DNA of 64,000 bases from Methylophilaceae bacterium (lineage in GTDB: Bacteria > Pseudomonadota > Gammaproteobacteria > Burkholderiales > Methylophilaceae): the NCBI GenBank assembly GCA_028355955.1, contig JAOMTQ010000005.1, forward strand, positions 1-64,000, given 5' to 3'. A program made the translations under genes and the position numbers. Shown here piece after piece: positions 53,060-56,690 of the stretch (position 1 is the stretch's first letter; the number at the start of each line of letters is the position of its first letter). The notes under the pieces were generated by a model. It did no database searches and was not told the DNA's origin. It saw nothing but the letters and a program-made list of their open reading frames with translations.

Positions 53060-53135
53060 GCGGGAATAGCTCAGCTGGTAGAGCGATACCTTGCCAAGGT
53101 ATAGGTCGCGAGTTCGAACCTCGTTTCCCGCTCCA
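53060..53135 (+). tRNA. tRNA-Gly(GCC)
   Basis: A 76-nt cloverleaf with encoded CCA. Acceptor arms GCGGGAA/TTCCCGC pair fully, the D-loop has GCTCAGCTGGTAGAGC, the anticodon loop TTGCCAA gives GCC, and the T-arm has GTTCGAACC. First of the pgsA-linked tRNA cluster. Confidence 0.98.
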
Positions 53136-53182: not shown

Positions 53183-53256
53183 GGCGCGTTAGCAAAGTGG
53201 TTATGCAGAGGCCTGCAAAGCCTTAGACGCCGGTTCGATTCCGGCACGCGCCTCCA
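53183..53256 (+). tRNA. tRNA-Cys(GCA)
   Basis: A 74-nt cloverleaf with encoded CCA. Acceptor arms GGCGCGT/ACGCGCC pair fully, anticodon loop CTGCAAA gives GCA, T-arm has GTTCGATTC. In related bacteria tRNA-Leu(UAA) follows directly; here it is displaced by two omp genes. Confidence 0.98.
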
Positions 53257-53282: not shown

Positions 53283-53996
53283 ATGAAAAAAATAAATATT
53301 TTTGTTTCACTTTTATTTATCTCAACTACAGCGTTCTCTGAAACTCCATCGTTGTTTGAAGGAGCGTATTTAGGTATAGATTTATCAAGAGTCATGTCTT
53401 CAGATGAAAAAGGTACTGAGTCGTCAAATGGAGTTCCTTCAGGATATACTTTAGATCAGGATTATGATGGAAGCCTATCTTTAGGACTTAAGGGAGGTTA
53501 TAACTGGCTTGTTTCAGACAAAATAGTATTTGGTTTGGATGCAAGTTTTCATAAATACGATAATGATAAGCACAACGCTACTTGGCATGTGAATGGAGTA
53601 ATAGACACTCGCTATCCTGAAAGCGCCAAAATTGATAATCGTTTCGATCTTAAAGCAAAATTGGGTTATTTATTAAATAATTCAAAATCCCTTGTATATT
53701 TAACCTCAGGTTACTCAAGAATAGATATTGAGCGTACAGACCAAGTTACCGTTGGTGTAGGGGGTGGGCAATTTAACGGAACAGCAACAAATAAGAAAGA
53801 TTCAGATGGTTGGGTTATCGGGTTAGGTGGGGAGCATTTTATTTCTGATAATCTTTCAATGAGTGCAGAATACCTATATACCAATTATGGTTCCGAAACT
53901 GTTGATACTGCATATATGTATGGTGCTGGGGCACAACAAGAATACGACTATGATGATCAAACATTACGAATTGGATTGGCTTATTGGTTCAAATAA
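53283..53996 (+). CDS. Outer-membrane beta-barrel protein (OmpA/Opa-like porin family), copy 1
   Basis: A 237 aa protein with signal peptide (MKKINIFVSLLFISTTAFS, cleaved after AFS) and alternating-residue strands consistent with an eight-stranded barrel: FEGAYLGIDLS, SLGLKGGYNWLV, LSMSAEYLYTNYG, and a C-terminal strand TLRIGLAYWFK ending Phe-Lys. I recognise the fold type, not a function. It begins 26 bp after tRNA-Cys with no Shine-Dalgarno; TAGAAT (53271-53276) ends 6 nt before the ATG, so the mRNA may be leaderless. A terminator follows. It sits inside the split tRNA cluster. Confidence 0.85.
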   Translation: MKKINIFVSLLFISTTAFSETPSLFEGAYLGIDLSRVMSSDEKGTESSNGVPSGYTLDQDYDGSLSLGLKGGYNWLVSDKIVFGLDASFHKYDNDKHNATWHVNGVIDTRYPESAKIDNRFDLKAKLGYLLNNSKSLVYLTSGYSRIDIERTDQVTVGVGGGQFNGTATNKKDSDGWVIGLGGEHFISDNLSMSAEYLYTNYGSETVDTAYMYGAGAQQEYDYDDQTLRIGLAYWFK

Positions 53997-54054: not shown

Positions 54055-54309
54055 CTATTAGTAGTAATTTAATCTTTTTTTAAAACAAAAAAAACTCTTA
54101 AAAGTGAACCCATCTTTATTGATATTACTTAACCTTAGTTAAGTAAAATGTCTACTGCTTCGAAGGGTTGTTTGATTAATTAATAAAAAAATTGTGCCTT
54201 TTTTAGGGCACAAATTAATTCATAAAAATGTGGTAAAATCTCGCCACAATATACTGTTACTGCGAAGCCCGGGTGGCGAAATTGGTAGACGCAAGGGACT
54301 TAAAATCCC
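54055..54309 (+). repeat. Left copy of about 250-bp direct repeat ending in a partial tRNA-Leu
   Basis: Homologous to 55295-55559. From 54223 to 54309 the two copies differ at only two positions, and 54251-54309 (59 bp) is identical. The upstream part is diverged, by eye about two thirds to three quarters identical. It contains a palindromic stem-loop (54125-54146: TTACTTAAC, loop CTTA, GTTAAGTAA), the block TCTACTGCTTCGAAGGG, a GTGCC/GGCAC hairpin and an extended -10 (TGGTAAAAT). Identity stops exactly at the end of the anticodon stem of tRNA-Leu. Confidence 0.88.
54267..54309 (+). pseudogene. 5' half of tRNA-Leu(UAA), truncated
   Basis: The first 43 nt of tRNA-Leu, from the acceptor 5' strand GCCCGGG through the D-arm, anticodon loop CTTAAAA and the closing TCCC of the anticodon stem, identical to the intact gene at 55517. 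After that the sequence is unrelated: no variable arm, T-arm or CCA. It cannot give a functional tRNA. The break point at the anticodon stem is where many integrases recombine. Confidence 0.92.
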
Positions 54310-54533
54310 AAATCTCTGGCACATCTCTTGTATTTATGCACCTTCCAGAGCACTAAAAAATTCAAAATGACTCACTTTTGACTCACCGAAATTCCTCTTG
54401 TTATCTATTCTCACCTGTTAAATATTCTTGATAAGACTAGTAAAAAAACTTGTATAGTTTATATATAAAAGGATTCTGTTAACGATGCTTCTTTTACGTT
54501 ACTCCTTAAATTAAATTTAATGAGAACGTATCC
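54310..54533. other. Intergenic segment between tRNA-Leu fragment and omp copy 2
   Basis: It has no gene. It has an inverted repeat CTCTGG (54314-54319)/CCAGAG near 54346-54351, a tandem TGACTCAC motif (54368-54375 and 54379-54386), and a possible promoter for omp copy 2 (TTGATA at 54428-54433, TGTATA at 54451-54456, spacing 17). The paired TGACTCAC motif is reminiscent of sequences beside tRNA-integrated elements, but no integrase is present. A GAGAA ribosome-binding site precedes the omp ATG. Confidence 0.6.
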
Positions 54534-55247
54534 ATGAAAAAATTACTTGCTGCACTCCTCCTCACACTTCCCACAATGGCTGTGGCTATAGATTTAGAGG
54601 GTTATTACATTACAGCGAAAGGCGGGGCATCTAAAACGTTTAATACAGGTACGACGAGTTTAAATAATCCTGTCGGGGCTCTTTTGACCTTACAAAATGA
54701 AGATTTAGGCACAGGCAGTGCGTTTGGATTCAGTGTGGGTAAATACCTCACCGATAGCTTTAGACTAGAACTAGAAGCCATCAAAAGAACCGGTTATGCA
54801 TATGATGCTCGTTATACTGCTTTTCCTACATTCACTGAAGAAGCAAAAATTGAGACAGAAGCTTTATTTATCAATAGCTTTTATGACTTCCAACCTTTTA
54901 TCATACGCAACACCGCTATTACCCCCTATCTAAGCGGTGGTGTGGGTATCTCAAGAAATAAGATGGGAACAGATGTGCGGCATTCAAACGGGGTACCTAT
55001 TCAGGCTATTGATGGCGACACCATTAGTCAGTTTGCCTATAAACTCTCGGCAGGGACTTTAGTTAGCTTAACCGAGCAACTATCTTTGGATATGAATTAC
55101 CAGTATGTCAATTTAGGGGCATTTAAAGGGGGTACTGAAGCTTATAATAATGGTGTTCGCGCGCCAGGTAATGACCTGAAAAGAGGAATAAACGGCGGTA
55201 ACATCAAAACACAAGAGTTGATGGTGGGTCTGCAATATAAATTCTAA
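54534..55247 (+). CDS. Outer-membrane beta-barrel protein, copy 2 (higher G+C)
   Basis: A 237 aa protein with signal peptide MKKLLAALLLTLPTMAVA (cleavage after AVA) and barrel strands such as GYYITAKGGASK, GFSVGKYLTDSFRLELEAI, ITPYLSGGVGISRNK, LSLDMNYQYVNLG and the C-terminal ELMVGLQYKF, which ends in Phe as BAM substrates do. It resembles Opa/OmpW-size eight-stranded porin-like proteins; function unknown. Although the same length as copy 1, the sequences are largely different. Hand counts of three 60-base lines give about 42-47% G+C, well above its neighbours, suggesting recent acquisition. Confidence 0.85.
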   Translation: MKKLLAALLLTLPTMAVAIDLEGYYITAKGGASKTFNTGTTSLNNPVGALLTLQNEDLGTGSAFGFSVGKYLTDSFRLELEAIKRTGYAYDARYTAFPTFTEEAKIETEALFINSFYDFQPFIIRNTAITPYLSGGVGISRNKMGTDVRHSNGVPIQAIDGDTISQFAYKLSAGTLVSLTEQLSLDMNYQYVNLGAFKGGTEAYNNGVRAPGNDLKRGINGGNIKTQELMVGLQYKF

Positions 55248-55294
55248 TTAATTTGACGATATGTTTTAAGATTTAGCGTAAAGATTAGTAATAA

Positions 55295-55559
55295 TCTCTA
55301 GTGGTAATTTAATCCTTTTATCAACAATAATAACTCTCAGAATAGAACCTATCTGCATTTATATTGCTTGACGTTAGGCAAGTAAAATATCTACTGCTTC
55401 GTAGGGTTATTTGAGCAAGCAATAAAAAAAGTGTGCCATAAAAATGACACAAAAGAGAAGAATTGCAGTGACTAAAAATGTGGTAAAATCTCGCCACACC
55501 ATACTGTTACTGCGAAGCCCGGGTGGCGAAATTGGTAGACGCAAGGGACTTAAAATCCC
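55295..55559 (+). repeat. Right copy of about 250-bp direct repeat ending in intact tRNA-Leu
   Basis: Counterpart of 54055-54309, starting about 48 bp after omp copy 2, as the left copy starts about 58 bp after omp copy 1. The stem-loop (55364-55385: TTGCTTGAC, loop GTTA, GGCAAGTAA) keeps pairing despite changes: an A-T pair is G-C here and another A-T is G-T, with one A-G mismatch. The TCTACTGCTTCGTAGGG block and the extended -10 are kept. Confidence 0.88.
55463..55489 (+). promoter_or_regulatory. Likely promoter of tRNA-Leu(UAA)
   Basis: TTGCAG (55463-55468) and TAAAAT (55484-55489) with a 15-bp spacer, an extended -10 TG (TGGTAAAAT) and a GC-rich CTCGCCAC discriminator, as in stringently controlled stable-RNA promoters. 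The left repeat copy keeps the -10 but not the -35-like sequence. Confidence 0.5.
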
Positions 55560-55603
55560 TCGACCTCACGGTCGTGCCGGTTCGATTCCGGCCCCGGGCA
55601 CCA
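55517..55603 (+). tRNA. tRNA-Leu(UAA)
   Basis: An 87-nt cloverleaf with encoded CCA. Acceptor arms GCCCGGG/CCCGGGC, anticodon loop CTTAAAA giving TAA, long variable arm CGACCTCACGGTCG region, T-arm GGTTCGATTCC. It is the intact counterpart of the 5' fragment 1250 bp upstream. Confidence 0.98.
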
Positions 55604-55608
55604 ATTCA

Positions 55609-55752
55609 ATGAAGATAGATAAAGACATAAACGAAATTAAGGTTATTTTAAAAAAAATTCACAAAAATTTATTCCTTATATTTTTCATCGTAGCTATATT
55701 TGCCTTACTTTATTTCGGTTTACTCATCTATCTTTTTGTTATTAAGGTTTGA
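55609..55752 (+). CDS. Small single-span membrane protein
   Basis: A 47 aa protein starting 5 nt after the tRNA-Leu CCA: charged N-terminus MKIDKDINEIKVILKKIHKN and one hydrophobic helix (about 21-45) ending FVIKV. No ribosome-binding site is clear, which weakens the call. Its stop overlaps the TTG start of the next gene by 3 nt, so coupling with the RpfE-like gene is possible. Unrecognised family. Confidence 0.55.
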   Translation: MKIDKDINEIKVILKKIHKNLFLIFFIVAIFALLYFGLLIYLFVIKV

Positions 55753-56690
55753 CTCATTCTTATAAAATTAAATGTGATTTCATCCCACAAAGTGAATATT
55801 TAAATCAGCTAATAAAATTATGCGATTACTCAATAATTAAAAATAACTCCTTTGAGAAAGAAGTATGTAATGACTTTAATATTGAGCAACAAAACGATTA
55901 TCCTATTGCGGCTATTTTGGCAGGTGAAGAATTCACCTCAGACTCTAAATATACTTTTTTTCAAGCCACACCCTGCTATTTTTCACTTCAAAGAGATTAT
56001 TATAAGTTTGAAAAAAATTTAGAAAATGAGTGTAGTTTTGATGAATTAAACACATTATGCGAAGATCTGAACCAACACTTTTCAGATAATGCTCAAAACT
56101 TCTTTATTTTTGAAAATAAATTATTCTTTGCAACGATAAAGAATGTAAATATATCGACTTATTTCCCAGAAGAAATCAACCAAGTCCCTAACAGAAATTT
56201 CTTACCTTTTGGTCAAGACGAAGTCTGGTGGCGTAAATTTATAAACGAATTACAAATGTTTTTATTTGATCATTCTGCTAACAAAAAAAGAGAAGAAAAG
56301 GGTCAGTATCCAATTAATTCTATTTGGTTTAGTGGAGGGGGTAAAAAAATTAAAGCAGACCCTAATAAGCAAAATAAGATTGTTTTTAGTGACCTTATAC
56401 TATTAAAAAAAATAGCACAGCTCAATTTAGAGGGTGTAAAAATTGAGCCTTTTACTAAGCGTGTTAATGAAAAAGAAGATTGTTATTTGTATCATCATAT
56501 CTTTGAAGCAAACACTGAGTATGATGTTTTTAAACTTATCCTTGAAGATGTAAAATCAAAAAAAATCACTAACTTAAGCCTTTCTCTTTATCTGGGTTCC
56601 TTTAAAATTTTATTTAAAACAAATTTCTATAGAAGATTAAAGTTTTGGCGTCATAAAAAAGAGCTACAAGAGATATTGAATGAAGCTTAA
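55749..56690 (+). CDS. RpfE-like protein (regulatory protein, RpfE type)
   Basis: A 313 aa cytoplasmic-looking protein. The block WWRKFINELQMFLFDH (about 157-172) followed by GQYPINSIWFSGGG (about 182-195) is characteristic of the RpfE family, sometimes labelled phosphoglycerate mutase-like, which sits beside recJ in betaproteobacteria and Xanthomonas. Biochemical role is not established. The start is TTG, overlapping the small membrane protein gene, and its end overlaps recJ by 11 nt. An alternative would be a later start, but the N-terminal region looks conserved in style. Confidence 0.8.
   Translation: MTHSYKIKCDFIPQSEYLNQLIKLCDYSIIKNNSFEKEVCNDFNIEQQNDYPIAAILAGEEFTSDSKYTFFQATPCYFSLQRDYYKFEKNLENECSFDELNTLCEDLNQHFSDNAQNFFIFENKLFFATIKNVNISTYFPEEINQVPNRNFLPFGQDEVWWRKFINELQMFLFDHSANKKREEKGQYPINSIWFSGGGKKIKADPNKQNKIVFSDLILLKKIAQLNLEGVKIEPFTKRVNEKEDCYLYHHIFEANTEYDVFKLILEDVKSKKITNLSLSLYLGSFKILFKTNFYRRLKFWRHKKELQEILNEA

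Follow-up and report, generated by a model that had tools for sequence, protein, structure and literature searches.

The interval between tRNA-Cys and tRNA-Leu(UAA) in the 64,000-nucleotide stretch of Methylophilaceae DNA analysed here (the window) probably holds two insertions without an integrase gene, bounded by attachment sequences and stacked at the 5′ half of tRNA-Leu(UAA), a kind of site also used by T7-like phages. Each insertion would have added one barrel gene and given an apparently single-copy tRNA gene a new promoter and 5′ half. Read in this way, a surface-protein exchange site of the host coincides with an attachment site of T7-like phage type, and the locus presents alleles in which the promoter of such a tRNA would have been exchanged. 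The host is presumably a streamlined planktonic methylotroph of the family Methylophilaceae. The window's assembly (G000) comprises 1.09 Mb in 19 contigs and is 79% complete, and genomes of the genus measure about 0.7–1.4 Mb.

Architecture of the locus

All features described here lie on the forward strand. The conserved left flank carries tRNA-Gly(GCC) (53060–53135) and tRNA-Cys(GCA) (53183–53256), both called by ARAGORN, and genome comparison places the conserved left border of the variable interval at the latter. Two genes for 237-aa barrel proteins of Pfam family PF13505 follow, omp1 (53283–53996), the cargo of a presumed first unit, and omp2 (54534–55247), that of a second. They end 270 and 269 bp before the two copies of the tRNA-Leu 5′ half, at similar distances as originally predicted. 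The two proteins share no significant similarity (21.6% identity over 97 aa, E 0.8) and are consequently no recent duplicate pair.

The direct repeat of about 250 bp described in the original prediction is borne out by BLAST, with coordinates correct to within a few bases: positions 54059–54309 and 55299–55559 share 81% identity over about 255 nt (E 8e-65), far beyond chance. In a separate comparison the repeat divides into pieces of 138 nt (76%), 87 nt (98%) and 35 nt (77%), the last 87 nt being 98% identical, and the longest exact run common to both copies is 59 nt. Each copy consists of an upstream segment followed by tRNA-Leu nt 1–43. The left upstream segment (Up-L, 54061–54266) has a hairpin at 54192–54213 and a likely tRNA promoter; its counterpart before the intact gene (Up-R, 55301–55516, hairpin near 55431–55451) is 79.5% identical to it. 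The left copy then carries a perfect tRNA-Leu 5′ half over 43 of 87 nt (54267–54309) and stops abruptly on the 3′ side of the anticodon stem, as had been noted from the sequence. ARAGORN makes no call there, and the Rfam tRNA model reaches 27.9 bits at 54267–54321, under its gathering score of 29 bits; around the locus the Rfam scan returned three tRNAs and two sub-threshold matches. The right copy continues into an intact tRNA-Leu(UAA) (55517–55603, ARAGORN), whose 5′ half (55517–55559) would have arrived with the second unit and whose 3′ half (55560–55603), according to genome comparison, would be that of the original host.

The displaced half, which we regard as an attL-type scar of the second unit, is followed by a segment that alignment with a relative, G012, marks as an element end (the arm, 54310–54470). 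Inside the arm, GACTCAC occurs as a direct repeat at 54369 and 54380, possibly representing arm-type sites. Between the arm and omp2 lies a conserved 5′ segment (the leader, 54471–54533), in which a hairpin is predicted to cover the probable ribosome site. The second unit thus delimited is about 1.25 kb long. No left scar, arm or leader accompanies omp1 in the window. The predicted absence of an integrase held among the ORFs of at least 70 aa in the interval (ORF list and Pfam), and neither a phage gene nor an integrase was found at the locus in ORF, Pfam and PHROG searches.

Empty and occupied alleles among relatives

A PgsA search of 31 genomes of the genus matched 25, and the interval was read to RecJ where contigs allowed. 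Genes outside the Pfam calls, such as recJ, smpB and guaB, are given these putative names from their sequences. Twenty-two genomes, the window's own included, were scorable in having tRNA-Cys and tRNA-Leu(UAA) on one locus. The nine others comprise G010 and G011, whose contigs break at the site, and seven with no tRNA-Cys or tRNA-Leu in the locus or no pgsA match. In 19 of the 22 the site is empty, with a gap of 32–45 bp between the two tRNA genes; the remaining three have gaps of 2260 bp (window), 1278 bp (G012) and 1026 bp (G030) and differ in omp content. The comparison excludes an arrangement in which the same two omp genes are present in every relative, and gives the variable content between conserved flanks that had been predicted. 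With three occupied alleles, the suggested hotspot of surface-protein exchange is plausible.

The single-contig genome G012 is the most informative of the occupied alleles. Its order is tRNA-Cys, a 27-nt remnant of the displaced half (nt 17–43), arm, leader, omp1, upstream segment and intact tRNA-Leu, and its half/arm junction falls at the identical nucleotide to that of the window; the two arms are 86.8% identical over 152 nt. The window has instead the order omp1, Up-L, displaced half, arm, leader, omp2, Up-R and intact tRNA-Leu. Because G012 has a single insertion with the same arm junction, we read the window as two stacked insertions. The simplest series would run from the empty site, through insertion of the omp1 unit (G012), to a state in which the omp2 unit has entered the restored tRNA and the first left scar is lost (window). 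G030 carries an omp2 relative (59%) and an upstream segment, with no displaced half and no arm.

Two features by which tDNA islands are recognized are found here: a restored tRNA gene with a displaced fragment, in this case a 5′ fragment lying upstream on the same strand, in G012 as well as in the window, and the empty site in the relatives counted above.

In the two genomes with broken contigs, one G011 contig stops at tRNA-Leu nt 42 and another starts at nt 1 (ends of C40 and C111), and G010:C32 starts 44 bp before tRNA-Leu. The promoter-like sequence before the half in the G011 contig that ends at nt 42 resembles that of empty relatives. Contigs would break in this way if the cell contained more than one copy of the half or if strains differed in it; the breaks are circumstantial indications of possible occupied or mixed alleles. 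On the right of the locus, a 313-aa ORF (orf313, 55749–56690) between tRNA-Leu and recJ belongs to no Pfam family; it is kept in the close clade and is weak or undetected at many other loci of the genus.

Origin of the upstream segments

Host flanks are 87.3–100% identical among G000, G012 and G030, as calculated over pgsA, the two spacers before tRNA-Cys, the tRNA-Leu/orf313 spacer, orf313 and recJ; another spacer, 17 nt long and 58.8% identical, lies beyond the locus and was left out as too short and perhaps misplaced. The flank directly 3′ of the tRNA-Leu 3′ half is 96–99% identical in G012 and G030. The upstream segments, in contrast, are only 64.0–79.5% identical among the same three genomes, which indicates that they were imported and did not simply descend with their flanks. 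Likewise, omp1 is 95.4% identical at the DNA level between G000 and G012, yet the segment behind it only 78.6%. In 40-column blocks the upstream segments look mosaic (Up-R, for example, is first close to that of G030 and then not), so that homologous recombination has probably acted on them too.

Similarity to T7-like phages

A scan of viral contigs for the tRNA-Leu core gave at least 120 loci; among those listed, ARAGORN called a full tRNA at 102 and not at 18, some of which may be full tRNAs that it missed. Seven of these 18 are cut by a contig end, and all 11 others have an integrase-like ORF in the locus. A stricter 37-nt pattern returned 28 loci, 14 with a full tRNA and 14 without, and 12 of the latter have an integrase-like ORF within 1.2 kb. 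Two of these half loci, on contigs L185 and L343, share a layout of integrase, small gene, tRNA-Leu half on the other strand and RNA polymerase; their T7-like assignment rests on PHROG profiles for L185 and on similar ORFs for L343. Their tRNA-Leu 5′ halves match that of the window at 41/43 and 42/43 positions, respectively.

The flanks of these phage halves also appear to resemble some of the upstream segments of the occupied alleles. Nine of the 14 half loci entered a comparison with shuffled sequences. The L185 flank scores 41 against Up-L (shuffle maximum 29, 0/1000 shuffles), 31 against Up-R (0/1000), 26 against G012 (5/1000) and 22 against G030 (27/1000), and that of L343 scores 41 against G012 and 31 against Up-R (0/500 each), with no match beyond shuffles against Up-L (24/500) or G030 (36/500). 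None of 28 comparisons with the seven other phage flanks was better than 17/500. A fairer control than shuffles is provided by the flanks of 21 host tRNA-Leu genes, against which 13 of the 14 half loci were compared, one being too short upstream. The best phage and best host local scores are then 41 and 20 for Up-L, 31 and 16 for Up-R, 41 and 20 for G012 and 22 and 18 for G030; for Up-R, L185 and L343 reach 31 and 29 and hosts at most 16. By local score, therefore, three of the four upstream segments are nearer to a phage attP flank than to any of the 21 host flanks, G030 being the exception. Compared in register, L185 agrees with Up-L at 55 of 90 positions (best host flank 28, next phage 37), whereas Up-R (39 for phage, 35 for host) and G012 (38 and 32) stand out little.

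Other results speak against a link to phages. Without its tRNA letters, the L185 flank matches none of 187 genomes of the family at E 0.01, the window included; a query that includes 17 nt of tRNA finds the window at E 1e-7, a match leaning on the tRNA letters. Against L185 and L343, the score of the arm is reached by 250/500 and 399/500 shuffles, and the exact arm pattern has no match in the viral contigs. An omp2 pattern gave five matches there, none of them confirmed, and neither omp1 nor omp2 falls in a PHROG family at E 0.001. Neither the arm nor the cargo is therefore tied to phage.

Other phage contigs and integrases were considered and set aside. L304 has an integrase 74% identical, but no tRNA-Leu core in the part of the contig examined, and the parts examined of L328 and L329, found through the RNA polymerase of L185, contain none either. 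Among the 31 genomes of the genus, no clear integrase of the L185 type was found; six weak matches have 26–35% identity, and at least four fall on Xer-like genes. As regards an integron cassette array, which would have an IntI integrase and attC sites, the window's genome has three PF00589 matches: two strong ones, taken for putative XerC and XerD, and a 405-aa integrase on another contig, 5.7 kb from tRNA-Ser. This last gene, like a G012 integrase beside tRNA-Arg, was rejected as the mobilizer because it lies elsewhere with no link to the tRNA-Leu site. Adjoining the 405-aa integrase is a row of small ORFs with near-identical signal-peptide-like starts (L298:2481–6477, G000:C18).

Insertion model and alternatives

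In the favoured reading, the attachment site would be the 5′ half of tRNA-Leu(UAA). Each unit would have borne at one end a promoter segment and tRNA-Leu nt 1–43; its integration in the anticodon stem-loop region would have pushed the host 5′ half leftward, while the host 3′ half, now linked to the incoming promoter and 5′ half, became part of an intact tRNA gene with a new promoter. The first unit would have brought omp1. The second, carrying arm, leader and omp2, would have entered the restored tRNA, leaving 54267–54309 as its displaced half, and left scar and arm of the omp1 unit would have disappeared later. The T7-like lineage of L185 and L343 would be the source of the attachment type and probably of the promoter segment too. 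The joins were presumably the work of an integrase that a phage provided in trans or that has disappeared since. The 1.25-kb unit may have been mobilized in trans, may be the relic of a larger prophage or may have spread by homologous recombination. Tentatively, and with rather low probability, the unit (tRNA-Leu 5′ half, arm, leader, omp gene and promoter) may be a minimal hitchhiking surface-protein cassette without an integrase of its own. It would borrow that of T7-like phages, stack at the attachment site that these phages themselves use and capture the tRNA promoter. Mobilization in trans would tie phage infection directly to surface-protein turnover, and if the unit is such a hitchhiker, infection itself would spread new surface barrels through the population.

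The alternative that retains most weight, while still unlikely, is that the first insertion alone was site-specific, and that the tandem and the omp differences arose by RecA-type recombination between strains, with unequal crossing-over at the 43-nt half and the upstream segments. The 59-nt exact run and the mosaic upstream segments agree with it, but the second unit is again bounded exactly at nt 43 and continues into the arm shared with G012, and none of the genomes examined has arm and omp2 as its only unit. The original proposal of recombination with a relative's omp–tRNA-Leu unit may hold for the second step. Tandem duplication of one old omp–tRNA-Leu unit with decay of one tRNA, also put forward originally, is by comparison scarcely credible. 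It would account for the similar spacing of omp gene and tRNA half in both copies; against it, the two cargo genes are without detectable similarity, the left half ends at once after 43 perfect nucleotides, and in G012 the arm follows the half before omp1, as a single insertion with the identical junction.

That the units are larger prophages or islands reduced to relics, in which selection kept the barrel gene while the rest was deleted, appears improbable. T7-like phages with a matching attachment half do exist, and the missing left scar and arm before omp1 show that deletions occur here; yet two different omp genes sit in one compact frame of arm, leader, omp and upstream segment in G012 and the window, which would call for two similar deletions, and no phage gene remains, including any PHROG match of omp1 or omp2. 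Still less probable is an assembly chimera, in which an allele with omp1, upstream segment and tRNA was joined at the shared tRNA half to one with half, arm and omp2. The fragmentation of the window's assembly and the contig breaks of G010 and G011 would suit such a join; however, the half/arm junction recurs in the single contig of G012, and an exact shared run of at most 59 nt would require assembly with a short word length.

Comparison with known systems

The proposed stacked insertion at a tRNA-Leu 5′ half has its closest counterpart in T7-like cyanophages, whose attP sites are described as matching the first half of tRNA-Leu (PMC8776855). In P-SSP7, S-TIP37 and HTVC105P the attachment sequence is the tRNA-Leu 5′ half (39–44 nt), like that of the locus here, and in the pelagiphage HTVC105P the 42-nt half lies between integrase and RNA polymerase, as in L185 and L343. 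Unlike these phages, the units described here are of about 1.25 kb, carry one barrel gene each and stand in tandem, with no phage gene or integrase and an arm unlike L185 and L343. The original prediction rightly set the duplicated 5′ half against classic 3′-end integration; the 5′ position does not, however, speak against integration, because 5′-half attachment sites are a documented minority type, with 159 of 3919 Islander islands given as carrying a 5′ fragment (PMC4383910). The locus resembles Islander tDNA islands in its restored tRNA gene and displaced fragment in the right order, and differs from them in having no integrase and in falling below the 2–200 kb filter, so that Islander, as outlined in that source, would reject it. 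As island finders described in this way require an integrase and at least 2 kb, small units without an integrase are dropped, and similar sites may be common yet unseen.

At the additive island fGI-2 of Ca. Methylopumilus, variable insertions are reported, some as small as 330 bp, each with a repeated 20-nt fragment of the tRNA-Lys 3′ end in front of it (PMC10872708). The host family, as we infer it, and the tRNA-fragment repeats are alike, but the fragment there is a tRNA-Lys 3′ end and here a tRNA-Leu 5′ half; the main text of that paper does not mention tRNA-Leu, leucine or recJ. A tycheposon, outlined in the same paper as an element of 4–200 kb that adjoins a tRNA and encodes a tyrosine recombinase, was rejected as an identification, the locus being smaller and having no such gene. 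In archaeal pTN3 the attB site lies in a tRNA 5′ half and the restored tRNA is expressed from the incoming promoter, an arrangement that the review describing it calls seldom met in bacteria (PMC8371274); pTN3 is archaeal and has an integrase gene at the site, whereas none was seen here. A search of the open-licence literature found no published report of this tRNA-Leu site.

Cargo genes and leader

Relatives of omp2 occur in 5 of the 31 genomes of the genus. Away from tRNA-Leu, they adjoin guaB in G012 and G030, and in G002 they follow tmRNA. The only named genome with a close match (L200, labelled Methylophilaceae; 88%, at a contig end) has no leader or tRNA half upstream of it.

A covariance model, with 150 candidates scored in each genome, detected the 63-nt leader in 4 of the 31 genomes; in the window the leader has no Rfam match. 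Besides omp2, it precedes omp1 in G012 (L030) and five genes in G002 (L220, positions 7477, 9219, 11880, 12907 and 14486), where a sixth match is weak; G015 has it at one place (L224:6166). It is common to unrelated envelope genes and may be a regulatory element that travels with cassettes. In G002 the leader genes are arrayed behind the tmRNA gene (L220:6958–14540), where the final 11 nt of tmRNA are found two more times, together with long direct repeats (133 nt at 92% and 219 nt at 89%). This array has the appearance of stacked insertions at the 3′ end of tmRNA. G002 has only two PF00589 matches, both strong and taken for putative XerC and XerD. The leader and the barrel family are thus associated with two different RNA genes, tRNA-Leu and the tmRNA of G002, and at neither was a local integrase seen. 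A distant omp2 relative (32%; L225:4303–5031) lies about 200 bp behind tRNA-Ser(GGA) in G025.
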